Positions 4,295 through 11,641 of a stretch of DNA of 64,000 bases are shown here, piece by piece (within the stretch, counting starts at the first letter, position 1; the number at the start of each line of letters is the position of its first letter). The notes under the pieces are model-generated. The model saw only the letters and a list, made by a program, of their open reading frames with translations. It did not search any database and was not told the DNA's origin. The stretch is from Burkholderiales bacterium (GTDB taxonomy: Bacteria > Pseudomonadota > Gammaproteobacteria > Burkholderiales > Eutrophovitaceae): contig DATMAN010000068.1 in the NCBI GenBank assembly GCA_035560005.1, positions 62,001-126,000 of the forward strand, given 5' to 3'. Position numbers and translations under genes: made by a program.

Positions 4295-4476
4295 GGAGCC
4301 CCCCGCGAATGCCGTCAGGCCGACGTCTTGAACCGAAGGTTCAAGGGCGGTCGCCTTCCGAGCGCATCAGGCGCTTCCGGACTGGACGCGCACAACAGCG
4401 CTGCTTGAGTCGGCAACCAGAATCATCGTGTTGGTTCAGAGAATCCAAAGCCCGAACAAGCACCGCAGGGGACATC
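4295..4476 (-). ncRNA. ssrS: 6S RNA
   Basis: The stretch just downstream of zapA on the minus strand carries the conserved 3' arm of 6S RNA: CCCTTGAACC, a short loop and GGTTCAAG, then a GCCTGACGGCATTCGCGGGG tail comparable to the E. coli 3' arm. The 5' end CCCCTGCG (4471 to 4464) pairs with CGCGGGGG (about 4307 to 4300) to form the closing stem expected of the molecule. 6S RNA mimics an open promoter and binds sigma-70 RNA polymerase in stationary phase. Position directly after zapA is the classic proteobacterial arrangement. The ends are approximate, and processing from the zapA transcript or an internal promoter are both possible. Confidence 0.88.
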
Positions 4477-4483
4477 GAAGCGT

Positions 4484-4795
4484 TCAAAACAGCTCGTCCT
4501 GCGAGTTCATCGCCTGATCGATGGCTGCCTGCATGCTGGCCATTCTACGCTTCAGCTCCGCGATGTCAAAAGCGCCGTCGACGCGCGTCGACAGCAGCTC
4601 ATGGGCGATGTTGAGCGCCGCCATGATGGCGATGCGCTCCATGCCGATCACTTTGCCGCTGTCCCGGATCTCGCGCATCTTCTGGTCGAGATAGGCGACG
4701 GCCTTGAGCAGATCTTTCTTTTCCTCCTCGGTACACGAGACGCGAAACTGTCGCCCGAGGATCGTCACGTCCAGGCCTGAGGCTTGTTTGCTCAT
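4484..4795 (-). CDS. zapA: Cell division protein ZapA
   Basis: 103-residue protein with the ZapA pattern: an N-terminal head (LDVTILGRQFRVSC), the conserved AVAYLDQKMREIR helix, then a long C-terminal coiled coil ending in DELF. ZapA binds FtsZ and crosslinks protofilaments at the division site. The ATG at 4795 overlaps the stop of the upstream coiled-coil gene (ATGA) and gives the usual length; longer in-frame extensions only run through that neighbour. 6S RNA follows directly, as in many proteobacteria. Confidence 0.93.
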   Translation of the reverse strand: MSKQASGLDVTILGRQFRVSCTEEEKKDLLKAVAYLDQKMREIRDSGKVIGMERIAIMAALNIAHELLSTRVDGAFDIAELKRRMASMQAAIDQAMNSQDELF

Positions 4796-4992
4796 TCGGT
4801 ACCTTCGGGAACCTGCTCCAGCAGCGCTTCGAGGCGGTTCCTGGCGGCGCCGATCTTTTCCGCCAGTCGCTTGTTCTCGTTGCGCGCGCTGGCGAGTTGC
4901 TGCCGCAGCTCGCTGTTGTCCTTGCGGAGCCGCTGGCACAGCTGCACCAACTGATGAATCTTCTGATCGAGTGCGTTGAGGTCAGCTTCCAT
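4792..4992 (-). CDS. Small coiled-coil protein, TIGR02449/ZapB-like
   Basis: 66-residue, almost entirely helical protein starting MEADLNALDQKIHQLVQLC. Heptad-like spacing of leucine and isoleucine runs through to residue 60. Short proteins of this type (TIGR02449 family, reminiscent of ZapB) usually precede zapA in beta- and gammaproteobacteria, and a role in division is inferred from that linkage. The start codon has no Shine-Dalgarno sequence. The promoter's -10 box ends seven bases before the A of this ATG, which suggests a leaderless message. The stop overlaps the zapA start. Confidence 0.8.
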   Translation of the reverse strand: MEADLNALDQKIHQLVQLCQRLRKDNSELRQQLASARNENKRLAEKIGAARNRLEALLEQVPEGTE

Positions 4993-4998
4993 AGGCAC

Positions 4999-5028
4999 AC
5001 TATAGTTTTGAAAATCTAGCAAAGTCAA
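4999..5028 (-). promoter_or_regulatory. Sigma-70 promoter of the coiled-coil/zapA/6S operon
   Basis: Read on the minus strand, TTGACT (5028-5023) and TATAGT (4999-5004) are separated by 18 bases; five of six positions match consensus in each box. By standard spacing transcription would start at about 4992, the A of the coiled-coil gene's ATG. Two ATTCAAAA copies lie 15 to 34 bases upstream of the -35 box. Confidence 0.72.
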
Positions 5029-5042
5029 CTGGTAACGGGACT

Positions 5043-5062
5043 TTTTGAATGTTCTTTTGAAT
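5043..5062. repeat. Direct repeat TTTTGAAT x2, 12-bp period
   Basis: Two identical octamers, TTTTGAAT at 5043-5050 and 5055-5062, lie in an AT-rich island within very GC-rich surroundings. On the minus strand they sit at about -51 to -71 relative to the predicted start of the zapA operon. That placement suits an UP-element-like contact or a regulator half-site pair. No known operator was recognised. Confidence 0.5.
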
Positions 5063-5124
5063 ATTTTGCCCAGTTCTGCCAGCAAGCGCTCACCAGCCCG
5101 GAAGCGATCCGGCGATGCATTAGT

Positions 5125-5130
5125 TAGAAT
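5125..5130 (+). promoter_or_regulatory. Candidate -10 box for the btuB leader
   Basis: TAGAAT lies about 12 bases before the first conserved bases of the cobalamin aptamer, where a -10 box is expected. No convincing -35 hexamer is present 16 to 18 bases upstream, so the promoter is weak or needs an activator. Confidence 0.4.
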
Positions 5131-5139
5131 GACCGTTCG

Positions 5140-5350
5140 CTTCAAGGTGCTCCGGCGCGGCCACGCGCCGGGGTTAAACGGGAAACAGGTCCAAAAGCCT
5201 GTGCTGCCCCCGCAACGGTAGGCGAGTGCGGGCGCGTCTTTCGGAAAACCGGCCCCGGTTTTCCAGGCCACTGTGACTGCGCGCGGATCAGCCGTGCAAC
5301 GTCATGGGAAGGCGACGCGCCAAGTCTCGCAAGCCCGGAGACCGGCCTCG
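5140..5350 (+). promoter_or_regulatory. Cobalamin (B12) riboswitch aptamer
   Basis: Conserved B12-box elements appear in order: GGTGCTCCGG (about 5147), TTAAACGGGAA (5174), GCTGCCCCCGCAACGGTA (5203-5220), GCCACTGTGACTG (5267), CATGGGAAGGC (5303) and AAGCCCGGAGACCGGCC (5331-5346). These are the hallmark sequences of the adenosylcobalamin/aquocobalamin riboswitch class. The aptamer precedes a TonB-dependent receptor gene, the classic btuB target, and should lower its expression when B12 is abundant. The rest of the 4993-5466 gap holds the zapA promoter and the expression platform. Confidence 0.95.
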
Positions 5351-5415
5351 CAAGCGAGAATGGGGTTTCCGCGCGGGGCGGTGTCCAATTCGATTCGCTT
5401 GTCCATCCGCGGAAA

Positions 5416-5460
5416 CTCCCTGTCAACAATCGGCGCGCGGCGGGCGCGCATTACAGGGAG
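5416..5460 (+). promoter_or_regulatory. Shine-Dalgarno-sequestering hairpin of the B12 riboswitch
   Basis: CTCCCTGT (5416-5423) is perfectly complementary to ACAGGGAG (5453-5460). The second arm contains AGGGAG, the ribosome-binding site six bases ahead of the btuB ATG. A GC-rich inner stem lies in the loop. A second helix, TTTCCGCG (5366-5373) with CGCGGAAA (5408-5415), abuts it and may link the aptamer to this switch. No terminator U-tract follows, so control is probably translational. Confidence 0.75.
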
Positions 5461-5466
5461 ATTCGA

Positions 5467-7446
5467 ATGAAGACGCTGTTTCAGTGCGCGGTTGCCGGAC
5501 TGGCGCTGAGCTTTCCGTGCATTGCACTCGCATCGATCGACATCCTGACCGAAGACATCGTCGTCACTCCGACCCGATTCGACGCGAGTCTGGAAAGCCT
5601 GGCGGTCGGAGTGACGGTTATCGAACGCGAACAAATCGAAGCGAGCCGGGTGCGCACCGTCGCCGAGGCGCTGAGCGTACTGGGTGGCGTGCACTCGCGC
5701 GACAACACCGGGCGGCCAAGCCCTCAGCTCGATCTACGCGGCTTTGGAGTGACCGGCGACCAGAACACGCTGGTCCTTGTCAACGGCCAGCGCATCAGCG
5801 AGAACGAGCTTCTGCCGGCCAACGTGGCTTCCATTCCGCTGGCGGCGGTCGAGCGAATCGAGATCCTGCGCAGCGGCGGCGCCGTGCTTTACGGGGGCGG
5901 TGCAACCGGGGGAACGATCAACATCATCACGCGTGCTCCGCGGCCGTATAGCCGCAGCGGCGCGGCGCTCGCGGGCGCCGGGAGCTACGACGCTTACACC
6001 GCGCAGGCCCGCGCAGAACTGTCAGGGGAGCATCTTGGTTTGCGTCTCGGCGTACTGCGGGACGATACCGACAACTACCGGCGCAACAACGCCAACCGCC
6101 AGGATTCCGTCAGTGCAACGCTGCGTCTGGCGCGCGAGCTGGATCGCTGGAACTTCAGCTTCGGGCGCGACCGCCAGGAAACGCGACTGCCGGGCGCCCT
6201 GAGCGAGAGCCAGATTGCTGTGGACCGGCGCGCCGCGGCCTTTCCTGATGACCAGGCTTCGCTCGACACGGATTTCGCGTCGCTGGGTTGGCTGCGTTCG
6301 CTGGATGGTGTCGAGTTCGGTGCCGATGCGACGTATCGGGGACGCGACGCGACCGGCTCGGTCTCGGGCGGCAGCAGCGCAGCGCGCGGACGAACGGTGC
6401 TGCTTTCACCGCGGGCGCGCGTGCGCGGCGTCCTGTTCGGCCAGCCCCACATGCTCGTATTGGGACTAGACTGGGAAAATTGGGAGTATGACACCCTCAC
6501 CGCTTTCCCGGGTTTCGACTCCGATGCCGCATCGGTTCAGAAGAACGGGGCCATCTATGCGCTCGACACCTGGGAGCCGCGCCAGGGCAGCACGCTGACG
6601 CTCGGCGCGCGCGCCCAGCGGAGCCGTACCCGAATCAACGAACGCTCGACGTTCTCGCCGGCCAGCAGCCTCTCCAGAACCGACGGCCTCAAGGCCTATG
6701 AACTGGCGTTGCGTCAACAGCTCGTCGATCGTCTCTCGCTGTACTTCAGGGCGGGCAACAGCTTCAGGCTGGCCACGGTGGACGAAAATCGGGGCAGGCC
6801 GGTGCCGCTGGCGCCGCAGACCTCGCGCGACCGCGAAGTCGCCCTCGAGTACGATGGCGCGGGATACTGGGCACGTGCTGCGGCCTATCGTCTGAACGTG
6901 TCCAACGAGATCCACTTCATGTTCATTCCGGGCGGAGTCTTCGGACTGTTCGGGGCCAACGTGAATCTCCCACCTACACGCCATGAGGGCGCGGAACTGG
7001 GCGCGGGAATGCAGTTCGCGTCCGGAGTGCGGCTTCAGGTGCGCTACGAGTGGCGCCGCGCGCGCTTCCTGGAGGGCCTGTTTGGGGGGACCGATGTCCA
7101 AGGAAACGAGATTCCGCTCGTGCCCCGGCATCTTGCATCGGCGCTGCTCACCTGGCGGCCCACTGAACACTGGAGTATTGGGGCATCGGCCCGTTACGTG
7201 GGCGAACAGCGCTTCGACAACGACCAGAGCAACACGTTCGGAAGCAAGATGCCCGCGTACGTTGTGGCGGACGTCAAGGCAAGCCGGCATTCGGGCAGAT
7301 GGGTCTGGACTCTGGCGATCAACAACCTCTTCGCCGAGGAGTATTTCAGCTACGGCATCCTGAACGGCGCAGGCACCAGCTTCAGTGCCTATCCGGCACC
7401 CGAGCGCAATCTGTTCCTTACGGCCGAATACCGCTTCGGCCGCTGA
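5467..7446 (+). CDS. btuB: TonB-dependent vitamin B12 receptor
   Basis: 659-residue outer-membrane receptor. A signal peptide covers about 22 residues, then a TonB-box-like EDIVVTPTR, a plug domain (TVAEALSVLGGV, QLDLRGFG, VERIEILRSGGAVLYGGGATGGTINI) and a 22-strand-type barrel. The protein ends in an aromatic-rich strand closing with RFGR. Control by the upstream cobalamin riboswitch identifies cobalamin or a related corrinoid as the probable ligand. It stands alone: no BtuFCD or corrinoid salvage gene follows. The receptor family is certain; the ligand assignment rests on the riboswitch. Confidence 0.9.
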   Translation: MKTLFQCAVAGLALSFPCIALASIDILTEDIVVTPTRFDASLESLAVGVTVIEREQIEASRVRTVAEALSVLGGVHSRDNTGRPSPQLDLRGFGVTGDQNTLVLVNGQRISENELLPANVASIPLAAVERIEILRSGGAVLYGGGATGGTINIITRAPRPYSRSGAALAGAGSYDAYTAQARAELSGEHLGLRLGVLRDDTDNYRRNNANRQDSVSATLRLARELDRWNFSFGRDRQETRLPGALSESQIAVDRRAAAFPDDQASLDTDFASLGWLRSLDGVEFGADATYRGRDATGSVSGGSSAARGRTVLLSPRARVRGVLFGQPHMLVLGLDWENWEYDTLTAFPGFDSDAASVQKNGAIYALDTWEPRQGSTLTLGARAQRSRTRINERSTFSPASSLSRTDGLKAYELALRQQLVDRLSLYFRAGNSFRLATVDENRGRPVPLAPQTSRDREVALEYDGAGYWARAAAYRLNVSNEIHFMFIPGGVFGLFGANVNLPPTRHEGAELGAGMQFASGVRLQVRYEWRRARFLEGLFGGTDVQGNEIPLVPRHLASALLTWRPTEHWSIGASARYVGEQRFDNDQSNTFGSKMPAYVVADVKASRHSGRWVWTLAINNLFAEEYFSYGILNGAGTSFSAYPAPERNLFLTAEYRFGR

Positions 7447-7596: not shown

Positions 7597-8754
7597 ATGC
7601 CGAATTCCAGCCTGACCGGGCACTTCCTGGCGCTGGCACTGGCGGCCGCGGTGGTATCACCAGCCGCTGCCAGGGTGGAGAAGATCGGAAAGGGTGAAGG
7701 TTTCGTCGACATCGTCGCGTGGCCCGGATACATCGAGCGCGGCGAGACTGACAAGAACTTCGACTGGGTGACCGGGTTCGAGAAGCAGACCGGCTGCAAA
7801 GTGCGGGTGAAGACCGCCGGCACTTCGGACGAGATGGTCGCGCTGATGAACGAGGGCGGCTTTGATCTGGTCACCGCTTCGGGCGATGCGAGCCTGCGGC
7901 TGATCGCCGGCAAGCGCGTCCAGGAAGTCAACGTCAATCTGATCCCCAGCTACAAGAGCATCGATCCCCGCCTGCAGAAGGCCCCCTGGCACTACGTCAA
8001 CGGCAAGCATTACGGCGTACCCTACCAGTGGGGCTATAACGTGCTCGCCTACAACACCAAAGCGTTCAAGAGCCCCCCCAAGAGCTGGGAAGTGGTTTTC
8101 AAGGAAACGAGGCTCGACGACGGCAAGTCCAACAAGGGCCGGATTCAGGCGTTCGACGGCCCGATCTACATTGCCGACGCCGCGCTCTATCTGATGCACG
8201 CCCGACCGGAGCTCGGGATCAAGAACCCCTACGAACTGGACGAAAAGCAGTACAAGGCCGCCCTGGATCTGCTGCGCGAACAGCGCAAGCTGGTGGCGCG
8301 CTACTGGCATGACGCGTTCGTGCAGATCGACGACTTCACCAACGAGGGCGTGGTGGCGTCCTCCTCGTGGGGATTCCAGGTCAATCTGCTGAAGTCGAAG
8401 AACGCGCCGATCTCCAGCGTCGTGCCTAAAGAAGGCGCCACCGGTTGGGCCGACACCACGATGATGCACGCGGAGGCCAAGCACCCCAACTGCGCCTACC
8501 TGTGGATGGAGCATTCTCTGAACAAGAAACTGCAGGGTGATCTTGCCGCCTGGTTCGGGTCGGTGCCGGTCGTGCCCGAAGCCTGCAAGGGCAATGCGCT
8601 GCTCGGGGATAAGGGGTGCGAGACCAACGGGATCAACGAGTTCGACCGCATCTGGTTCTGGCGTACCCCGGTCGCCGACTGCGGTGGCGGGCGCACCTGT
8701 GTGCCCTACTACCGCTGGGTGACGGACTACATCGCGATCCTCGGCGGTCGCTAG
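7597..8754 (+). CDS. ydcS: Polyamine-type ABC transporter substrate-binding protein (YdcS-like)
   Basis: 385-residue periplasmic binding protein with a signal peptide of about 25 residues ending near PAAARVE. Type II binding-protein features include FVDIVAWPGYIERG, FDLVTASGDASLRL and the YGVPYQWGYNVLAYN lining segment. A strong ribosome-binding site (AGAGGAGA) precedes the ATG, and TACAAT at 7481 is a possible -10 box. It heads a cluster in the same order as E. coli ydcSTUVW, a putative putrescine importer with aminobutyraldehyde dehydrogenase. A perfect hairpin follows the gene, as is common after highly expressed binding-protein genes. Confidence 0.85.
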   Translation: MPNSSLTGHFLALALAAAVVSPAAARVEKIGKGEGFVDIVAWPGYIERGETDKNFDWVTGFEKQTGCKVRVKTAGTSDEMVALMNEGGFDLVTASGDASLRLIAGKRVQEVNVNLIPSYKSIDPRLQKAPWHYVNGKHYGVPYQWGYNVLAYNTKAFKSPPKSWEVVFKETRLDDGKSNKGRIQAFDGPIYIADAALYLMHARPELGIKNPYELDEKQYKAALDLLREQRKLVARYWHDAFVQIDDFTNEGVVASSSWGFQVNLLKSKNAPISSVVPKEGATGWADTTMMHAEAKHPNCAYLWMEHSLNKKLQGDLAAWFGSVPVVPEACKGNALLGDKGCETNGINEFDRIWFWRTPVADCGGGRTCVPYYRWVTDYIAILGGR

Positions 8755-8798
8755 GAACGGCGCCCCCGCGCTTCGCTCTGGCGCCGGAGAGCAGGCAC

Positions 8799-8834
8799 AC
8801 ACAGGACGGGCCGCGAAAGCGGCCCGTCCTGTGT
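8799..8834 (+). terminator. Perfect 16-bp hairpin between ydcS and ydcT
   Basis: The arms at 8799-8814 (ACACAGGACGGGCCGC) and 8819-8834 are exact complements around a GAAA tetraloop. A short T-rich run (CTTTT) follows only seven bases later. The hairpin ends 14 bases before the ydcT start. It probably acts as a partial terminator or 3'-end stabiliser that makes the binding protein more abundant than the membrane components. Confidence 0.75.
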
Positions 8835-8848
8835 CGCATCTTTTCATC

Positions 8849-9889
8849 ATGCCCACGCCCACCAGCATTGCCGTGAGTTTCGCCGCTGTCTCACGCGCGT
8901 TCGGGGTGGTGCGCGCCGTGGACGACGTCAGTTTCGAAGTGCGCGACGGTGAGTTCTTTTCCATGCTCGGACCGTCCGGTTCGGGCAAGACCACATGCCT
9001 GCGGCTCATCGCCGGCTTCGAACTGCCGGATCGCGGCGCGATCGTCATCCACGGGAGGAACGTTGCGGGTGTCCCGCCCTACGAGCGCGACGTCAACACC
9101 GTTTTCCAGGACTATGCGCTGTTCCCGCACATGACCGTGTACGAAAACGTCGAGTACGGCCTGATGATCCGCAGGGTTGCGGCCGCGCAGCGGCGCAGCC
9201 GTGCGGATGAGATGCTCGCGCTGGTAAAGCTCGAAGGCATGGGGGATCGCAGACCTTCCCAGCTGTCCGGAGGTCAACGCCAGCGCGTGGCCCTGGCGCG
9301 CGCTTTGATCAATCGGCCGGGCCTGCTGTTGCTCGACGAGCCGCTGGGTGCACTCGACCTGAAGCTGCGCGAGCAGATGCAGGAAGAACTGAAGGCCCTG
9401 CAGCGACAGGTCGGGATCACCTTCGTCTACGTCACGCACGACCAGGGCGAAGCGCTCGCCATGAGCGACCGGCTCGCGGTGTTCAACCGTGGCAGGATCG
9501 AGCAGATCGGTACACCCGCGCAGATCTACGAGCATCCGGCCACCGTTTTCGTTGCCGGTTTCGTCGGCGTGTCCAACCTCTGTACCGGCGAGCTGGCGCG
9601 GCGGCTGACCGGCTCGGAGCGACCGTTCGCGATCCGACCGGAAAAGATCCTGTTCGCCGCGCCGCAGGCCCCGGCCCCGGAGGGCAGCGTCTGCGTGACC
9701 GGCCGGGTCTCGGCGGTGACGTATCTGGGCGCTTCAACCCGCTATACCGTGGCGCTCGATGGGGGCGGTGAACTCACGGTGGTGCGGCAGAACTTGGCCG
9801 GACCCGACGCCGGGCCGCACGTGAGCGAGGCGGTCCGGCTGTTTTGGCCGCGCCATCTCATGCAGCCGCTGAGCGGGGCCGCTAGATGA
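8849..9889 (+). CDS. ydcT: Polyamine-type ABC transporter ATP-binding protein (YdcT-like)
   Basis: 346-residue ABC ATPase. Walker A GPSGSGKTT is near residue 40, signature LSGGQRQRVALARAL near 137, Walker B LLLLDEPLGALD near 157 and the switch histidine follows in YVTHDQ. A C-terminal TOBE-type domain starts around residue 240. It energises the adjacent permease pair at the inner membrane. ATG 8849 is preferred; a GTG at 8831 lies inside the hairpin and adds only six residues. Neither has a clear ribosome-binding site. Its stop overlaps the next start (ATGA). Confidence 0.9.
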   Translation: MPTPTSIAVSFAAVSRAFGVVRAVDDVSFEVRDGEFFSMLGPSGSGKTTCLRLIAGFELPDRGAIVIHGRNVAGVPPYERDVNTVFQDYALFPHMTVYENVEYGLMIRRVAAAQRRSRADEMLALVKLEGMGDRRPSQLSGGQRQRVALARALINRPGLLLLDEPLGALDLKLREQMQEELKALQRQVGITFVYVTHDQGEALAMSDRLAVFNRGRIEQIGTPAQIYEHPATVFVAGFVGVSNLCTGELARRLTGSERPFAIRPEKILFAAPQAPAPEGSVCVTGRVSAVTYLGASTRYTVALDGGGELTVVRQNLAGPDAGPHVSEAVRLFWPRHLMQPLSGAAR

Positions 9890-10815
9890 CCACGCTGGCG
9901 GCGCCTTCCCCTCTGCAGCGGATTTCCACGGCGCTGTATCTGCGCCCGCGCATCCTGCTGTTCCTGCTGCTCGCACCGCCACTCATCTGGCTGGGTGTGA
10001 TCTACCTGGGATCGCTGTTCGCGCTGCTGTTGCAGAGCTTTTTCTATATCGACGAGTTCGCGGGAACCATCGTCCACGACTTTTCGCTGCGTACCTACGG
10101 CGAGCTGTTCACGCGCGCCAACTTCGACATCTTCCTGCGTACTGCGGTAATGGCGGCGGTAGTCACGGTCGCCGCGGCGATCGTCGCCTTTCCCATCGCC
10201 TATTACATGGTGCGCTACGCCTCCCTGAAGACCAAGGCGCTGCTGTATCTGGCGGTGATGCTGCCGCTGTGGTCGAGCTATCTGGTGCGGGTCTATGCCT
10301 GGAAGCTGATCCTGGCGAAGGAAGGCATCGTGACCTGGATCGCGGAGCAGACGCATCTGGCCTGGCTGCTCGACTCGATCCTCGCCATTCCGGTCATCGG
10401 CGGTCCCTCGCTCTCGATCTCTTATATAGGCACGTTTCTGGTGTTCCTGTACATCTGGCTGCCGTTCATGATCCTGCCGATCGTCGCGGCGCTGGAGCGG
10501 GTGCCGGCCTCGCTCGTCGAGGCTTCGGCCGATCTGGGCGCGCATCCCGGTGCGACCTTCCGCAGGGTGATCCTCCCGCTGGCGCTGCCGGGAGTGGTGG
10601 CCGGTTCGATCTTCACCTTCTCGCTCACCCTGGGCGACTACATCATTCCCGGCATCATCGGCAATTCGCGCCCCTTCATCGGCCAGGCGGTCTACCAGCT
10701 CCAAGGCACCGCGGGCAACATCCCGCTGGCTGCGGCGTTCACCGTGGTGCCAATCGCAGTCATGTCCGTCTATCTGATGATCGCAAAGCGTGCGGGAGCC
10801 TTCGATGCGCTCTAG
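9886..10815 (+). CDS. ydcU: Polyamine-type ABC transporter permease 1 (YdcU/PotB-like)
   Basis: 309-residue inner-membrane permease with six predicted helices. Its ATP-binding-protein contact loop (EAA motif) reads [17 protein letters not shown] near residue 208. The N-terminal cytoplasmic stretch and long first periplasmic loop ([20 protein letters not shown]) are usual for PotB/YdcU-type subunits. The start overlaps the ATPase stop by four bases, and the end overlaps the second permease by eleven bases, which implies coupled translation. Confidence 0.9.
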
Positions 10816-11641
10816 CGCCGGGAAGCGTTCGCCGCGCAGTGGCAGACGCGCCGGAGTGCCGCTCCGGATCGCGACCATCGGCGGGTTGCTGTTCCTGCAC
10901 GTGCCGCTGTTCATCATCATCCTCTATGCCTTCAGCGCGGAGGAGCGCAGCTTCGTCTTTCCACCGCCGGGGTTCACCACGCGGTGGTTCGCGGTGGCGC
11001 TCGAGCGCGAGGACGTGCGTCGCGCGTTGTTGCTCTCGCTGCAGGTGGCGGTCGTGGCCACCGCCGCGGCGATGGTGCTCGGCACGCTCGCGGCGGCCGC
11101 GGTGTGGCGCACGCGCTTCTTCGGGCGCGAAGCGATTTCGCTCCTGCTGATCCTGCCGATCGCGCTGCCGGGAATCATTACCGGGATCGCGCTGCGCTCC
11201 GCGCTGAACCTGATGGACATTCCGTTCAGCTTCTGGACCATCGTCATCGGCCACGCTACGTTTTGCATCGTCGTGGTGTACAACAACGTGCTGGCGCGGT
11301 TGCGACGCTCGGCGCCCGCCCTGATCGAAGCATCCATGGATCTTGGCGCCAACGGCTTTCAGACCTTCCGCTACATCGTGCTGCCGCACATCGCCACGGC
11401 GTTGCTCGCCGGGGGCATGCTCGCCTTCGCGCTCTCGTTCGACGAAGTGATCGTTACCACCTTCACCGCCGGCCAGCAGTCCACGCTGCCGATCTGGATG
11501 CTCTCTGAGCTGATCCGCCCGCGACAGCGGCCGGTAACCAATGTGGTCGCCGTTTTCGTGATCGCGGTGACGCTGATCCCGATTCTGGCGGCGTTCTACC
11601 TGACCCGTGACACCCATGAAGCCGCCGGAGGCGGCAGATAA
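10805..11641 (+). CDS. ydcV: Polyamine-type ABC transporter permease 2 (YdcV/PotC-like)
   Basis: 278-residue permease with about six membrane helices and the EAA loop [17 protein letters not shown] near residue 180. The [11 protein letters not shown] segment is typical of PotC-class subunits. ATG 10805 is chosen over a GTG five codons earlier. It overlaps the preceding permease gene by 11 bases and is followed after 20 bases by the aldehyde dehydrogenase gene, which has a GGAGG-type ribosome-binding site. It would pair with YdcU to form the translocation channel. Confidence 0.9.

Follow-up and report, generated by a model that had tools for sequence, protein, structure and literature searches.

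The window analysed here, a stretch of 64,000 nucleotides from a Burkholderiales bacterium, contains a cobalamin (B12) riboswitch upstream of the gene of a TonB-dependent outer-membrane receptor. The aptamer occupies positions 5128-5364 of the forward strand, from P1 to the B12 box. A covariance search with the Rfam Cobalamin model (RF00174) scored it at 84.8 bits (E 1.9e-19) against a curated gathering score of 31.5, and the match spans the full model (1-189), which bears out the original prediction of a canonical aptamer. It is the only RF00174 match in the assembly, which comprises 3.6 Mb in 107 contigs and is 99% complete. From its family, the aptamer is predicted to bind cobalamin (class I: adenosylcobalamin). 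Its loop L5 (CCCCCG, 5207-5212, forward strand), identified by comparison with the riboswitches described in the available text of PMC10653944, would provide one half of a kissing loop. On the reverse strand, a 6S RNA (4296-4474, RF00013, 61.7 bits) adjoins a ZapA gene (4484-4834); both are divergent from the riboswitch leader.

The receptor gene (5467-7446, forward strand) encodes 659 amino acids with Plug and barrel domains (PF07715 and PF00593, both above cut-off). It had been called btuB in the original prediction. The domains agree with a TonB-dependent receptor, but the scores against the BtuB models are far below their cut-offs (TIGR01779: 122.8 against 599.7 bits; PRK10641: 71.8 against 836 bits). 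Classification of the gene as BtuB was thus rejected at the model level, and the name itself is a matter of interpretation. Among solved chains, the best sequence matches are to YncD, the PQQ transporter, the Colicin I receptor and BtuB, all of them partial. The genome contains a full-length MetH, its match to MetE is weak and below cut-off, and no match to CobB/CbiA was found in it. B12 import would therefore be needed, and the likely role of the receptor is the import of B12. At 59% identity, the nearest relative of the receptor that was found is encoded in L032 (CAMDKM010000003.1), which has the same leader design and belongs to a MAG titled Bordetella parapertussis; this title may be a misassignment. 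The genes downstream of the receptor (7597-11641) encode a substrate-binding protein similar to YdcS, an ATPase similar to PotA and, judged from the look of the sequence only, two permeases; none of them is obviously B12-related.

The expression platform is made up of four strands of the forward strand, here named A to D. Strand D (ACAGGGAG, 5453-5460) holds the Shine-Dalgarno (SD) core GGGAG (5456-5460) and lies 6 nt before the ATG at 5467. Strand C, the anti-SD (CTCCCTGT, 5416-5423), is its exact 8-bp complement, as had been predicted; a perfect 8-nt complement to a GGAG-containing octamer was obtained in 7/2000 dinucleotide shuffles of 5365-5447. Strand A, the anti-anti-SD (GGGGTTTCCGCG, 5362-5373), pairs with strand B (CGCGGAAACTCC, 5408-5419) in a helix of 12 bp with one G-U, a length that was reached in 0/1000 linker shuffles. 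All four octamers named in the original prediction were verified at their exact positions. Two of these, TTTCCGCG (5366-5373) and CGCGGAAA (5408-5415), form the core of the A:B helix, which is longer than the 8 bp first described. The last 4 nt of B are also the first 4 nt of C (5416-5419), and A has 5369-5373 in common with a hairpin, P13a. Therefore, P13a excludes A:B, and A:B excludes C:D.

It had been suggested that the helix of TTTCCGCG and CGCGGAAA passes ligand binding on to the SD hairpin. As the full helix takes 4 nt of the anti-SD, A:B competes with the SD hairpin, and a role as transmitter of the OFF state was ruled out; A:B is better read as an antisequestor of the ligand-free state. 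The predicted absence of a terminator was confirmed, with 0 terminator-like sites in 4950-5560. This rules out terminator-based control and, along with the sequestered SD, supports the translational control that had been proposed. The leader thus has the architecture of a translational OFF switch, in which an SD-sequestering C:D helix and an antisequestor A:B are mutually exclusive and no terminator is found.

Downstream of the aptamer, two hairpins of the window leader carry loops complementary to L5, each with 6 possible pairs and one bulged C. Both had escaped the original prediction. The proximal hairpin, P13a (CCGC-GCGGG-GCGG, 5369-5381, forward strand), has its 5' arm within strand A and presents CGCGGGG (5372-5378) as loop plus closing pair. 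The distal hairpin, P13b (GCGCGC-GGCGG-GCGCGC, 5433-5449, forward strand), is situated inside the SD hairpin and presents CGGCGGG (5438-5444). Nine leaders were aligned (the window, G003, G006, G009, G011, G084, G038, G165 and G127), and 96.6% of the cells over both helices are paired. The P13b loop reads CGG[CT]GGG in 9/9 leaders, with a stem that has changed on both sides at 4/6 pairs. P13a is nearly invariant, its core GGNGNNTNCGCGNGGGGCNG being identical at the lettered positions in all nine leaders, and its stem is consequently without covariation support. Lying inside strand A with a loop complementary to L5, P13a is the more likely candidate for the ligand-dependent element. The second loop could dock as well.

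We consider it quite likely that the cobalamin riboswitch represses translation of the TonB-dependent receptor through a competition between P13a, A:B and the SD hairpin. In plain terms, an RNA switch that senses vitamin B12 probably shuts down a gene for B12 uptake by covering the site where the ribosome lands. In the ligand-free leader, A would pair with B and B would occupy the first half of the anti-SD, thereby leaving the SD free and allowing the receptor to be made. Bound cobalamin would stabilise the docking of L5 on P13a. P13a would then use up part of A, and B would be released. The anti-SD, released in turn, would pair with the SD and translation would stop. P13b in the SD hairpin could take over or reinforce the docking of L5.

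The computed energies of the two states are nearly equal, with -31.6 kcal/mol for A:B plus P13b versus -31.2 kcal/mol for P13a plus C:D plus P13b. Such a balance would fit a switch that can be tipped by a small docking energy. In the window leader, the SD was unpaired at 0.0-0.5% when P13a was forced, versus 12-90%, depending on the position, when A:B was forced, so that most of the SD became accessible. Eleven leaders were folded with P13a forced: SD access went down in 8, stayed around 0 throughout in G000 and G084, and rose slightly in G009. The unpaired fraction of the SD fell from 0.44 to 0.01 in G077 and from 0.68 to 0.04 in G094. In G077, GGAAATGCCGCGGGG pairs with TCCCGCGGCATTTCC and the anti-SD TTTCCATTGTT pairs with GACAATGGAAA, the two helices having 5 nt in common. 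G077 and G094 display the same A:B design in a different sequence, which, judging from the leaders, is a convergent design.

Other folds count against the proposed switch. The unconstrained window leader already hides the SD (0.00 unpaired in one analysis, 0.01-0.14 in another), and a fold that starts at strand A leaves it 0.05-0.69 unpaired. Blocking the 3' arm of P13a in the G000 fold did not free the SD. The SD is hidden in the unconstrained fold because the 3' strand of P1 is able to pair with linker sequence once the remaining aptamer is left out of the fold. An ON state thus requires either a formed P1 or co-transcriptional folding.

Related leaders were searched for within the order, taken to be Burkholderiales. 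After two others without a B12 box had been dropped and one low-quality duplicate replaced, 156 leaders were assembled, of which 151 were analysed; those left out had an unreadable L5 or too short a downstream sequence. The sample is non-random and combines best scores, picks of new genera and 7 leaders added for their L5 variant. Hairpins were counted at -3 kcal/mol or better, with loop and closing pair matching the leader's own L5. This replaced the scoring of loops without the closing pair, which cuts off kissing bases and found an L13-like hairpin in 25/151 leaders and two in none. At least one L5-matching hairpin was found in 125/151 leaders, compared to 12/593 coding windows and 4/151 antisense strands. 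Two such hairpins are present in 29/151 leaders, in every case one proximal and one distal, and these twins are spread over 21/84 genera. At a stricter cut-off (-8 kcal/mol or better), twins remain in 6/151. In 24/29 twins, the start of the proximal hairpin lies between -10 and +4 relative to the aptamer end. The distal one starts at +61 to +168 and, in 28/29, ends 5-27 nt upstream of the assigned start codon. The competing helices were scored against linker shuffles in a set of 29 leaders, consisting of 27 of the 29 twins and two leaders added by hand: A:B reached p<=0.05 in only 5/29 and C:D in only 8/29, and strands B and C share one or more nucleotides in 10/29, which weighs against the proposed switch.

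When the remainder of each leader was shuffled, a mean of 3.1 twin leaders was obtained (maximum 6, 15 runs) versus the 29 observed. Permuting L5 gave two hairpins in 1, 1, 2 and 2 of 131 leaders, versus 28/131 with the real L5. The permutation of the loop letters failed to reject chance for the second hairpin (29 versus a mean of 24.6, sd 2.1, maximum 32), because a G-rich loop with a C-G closing pair keeps its complementarity after permutation. The G-richness of the loops therefore accounts for part of the signal. Proximal and distal hairpins showed no positive association among the 151 leaders (29 both, 73 proximal only, 23 distal only, 26 neither), and selection of the twin arrangement as a unit is therefore not demonstrated.

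A further line of evidence comes from leaders in which L5 ends in CUG and not CCG. Among the inspected leaders of this type, CAGGG is found soon after the aptamer in G020, G333, G152, G248, G359 and G069, and likewise in G315, G036, G125, G076, G119 and G133; G086, which also has the CUG variant, falls outside this list. The distal loop is of a G-rich CA type in 6/11 leaders with L5 CUG (CAGCGGG in G076 and G133, CAGUGGG in G248, CAUGGGG in G152, CAACGGG in G359 and G069). As for the others, G315 presents CAGGG once its last pairs are opened, the loops of G020 and G333 are of a CUG type, and G125 and G119 have no match. Among leaders with L5 CCG, the distal loop contains CGG in 64/109 and is CA-type in 3/109. 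The distal loop tends to change together with L5. No weight is placed on the p value of the corresponding Fisher table, in which the loops CAGCGGG and CAACGGG entered both columns. By parsimony on the aptamer tree, 5 changes of L5 type are needed; several of the proximal motifs hardly differ between families, however, and common ancestry or transfer may reduce the real number of events. A class-wide search with a pattern for the L5 variant returned 8 matches, none with a B12 box nearby. A different arrangement was seen in L080 and L083 (G041, G087), where an L13-like loop just after the aptamer, CGGAGGG, itself resembles the SD and lies some 8 nt upstream of the start codon. The L5 of these two leaders is CCCUCG; by docking, it would conceal the SD without any intermediate helix, as has been reported for env8 (PMC10907184).

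Three other explanations have to be weighed. It may be that docking is confined to the proximal P13a, as in E. coli btuB, and that CGGCGGG, as a stable or G-rich loop in the SD hairpin, takes no part in it. The single L5-complementary 5-mer of E. coli indeed lies early in the leader, and in G020, G333, G036 and G125 the proximal loop has changed along with L5 CUG, the distal loop not having changed in step. The permutation of the loop letters points the same way, since G-richness alone could explain many of the second hairpins. This explanation has an appreciable, if minority, chance of being correct; the CA-type distal loops of the CUG leaders (6/11 versus 3/109) and the near-complete loss of twins with a permuted L5 argue against it. 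Conversely, the distal P13b could be the only working L13, as proposed for ppe2 of M. tuberculosis, whose L13 has the anti-TIR on one side and the TIR on the other (PMC11260477, available text). The proximal GC-rich hairpin and A:B would then be incidental or structural. The conserved P13b loop over a covarying stem would suit this, as would the relatives of genus g2, which show just a P13b-kind hairpin (CACGGCGGGTG) immediately before the SD, and the leaders with a distal but no proximal hairpin (23/151). Against the invariance of GGNGNNTNCGCGNGGGGCNG, the 12 bp of A:B and the proximal CAGGG loops where L5 is CUG, however, it is unlikely.

The last explanation moves the switch to P1. The linker 5395-5401 (TCGCTTG) copies the 5' strand of P1 and would compete for its 3' strand (5351-5357), dismantling the ligand-free aptamer. 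The complement is exact over 7 nt, a 7-mer of this kind occurs in 36/2000 linker mono-shuffles, and the pairing is present in the minimum-energy fold of the window. By eye, no such copy was seen in the other eight aligned leaders. Moreover, the pairing accompanies a hidden SD in the fold, and the ON state is not explained by the pairing itself. A switch of this sort is very improbable; 5395-5401 may still be noted as a possible anti-P1 element.

The competition between P13a, A:B and the SD hairpin is thus the preferred reading, and it can be extended tentatively. L5 might kiss P13a first, thereby freeing the anti-SD, and then hand over to, or share its docking with, the L13 of the SD hairpin. 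Such a relay or double lock seems rather doubtful. If true, ligand binding would be read twice, and a relay would amount to a recurrent Burkholderiales expression platform that joins two separately known placements of L13. If both loops dock, there would be B12 riboswitches with a two-stage readout.

Taken singly, the aptamer, the OFF logic and both placements of L13 are already known. In the literature searched by titles and abstract openings, no description of two L13 hairpins in one leader was found. What is present here is a real, mostly ordinary switch with a second L5-complementary loop that looks unreported. In B12 riboswitches, the known transmitter is an L5-L13 kissing loop, which makes P13 more stable and favours the RBS hairpin (PMC10653944, available text). 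E. coli btuB follows this scheme, its P13 docking L5 and promoting the RBS hairpin (PMC10653944), and shares with the window the aptamer family, the outer-membrane receptor as target and the translational OFF logic. Its post-aptamer leader, used as control, contains one L5-complementary 5-mer (CGCGT), whereas two loops of the window leader are complementary to L5, of which the second belongs to the SD hairpin. In P. megaterium metE and A. halodurans cobT, the stability of P13 via L5-L13 likewise decides between competing helices, as described in PMC10653944. These control transcription terminators, however, and none was found in the window leader. The env8 hydroxocobalamin riboswitch also represses translation by L5-L13 docking, and a bulge of 1-2 nt in its loop-loop helix makes docking cobalamin-dependent (PMC10907184, available text); both loops of the window imply one bulged nucleotide. 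In env8 the RBS lies inside the P13 loop, whereas in the window the SD lies in the 3' strand outside P13b. The closest parallels in placement are found in M. tuberculosis, where the L13 of metE overlaps the anti-anti-TIR, similar to P13a, and that of ppe2 lies between anti-TIR and TIR, similar to P13b (PMC11260477, available text). Each of these leaders has one placement and the window leader has both. According to the available text of PMC10653944, the way in which the effector-bound state leads to the alternative folds of the expression platform was not known. With both placements of L13 and an antisequestor of near-equal energy in one leader, and with loops that are separable, this question would become directly testable.
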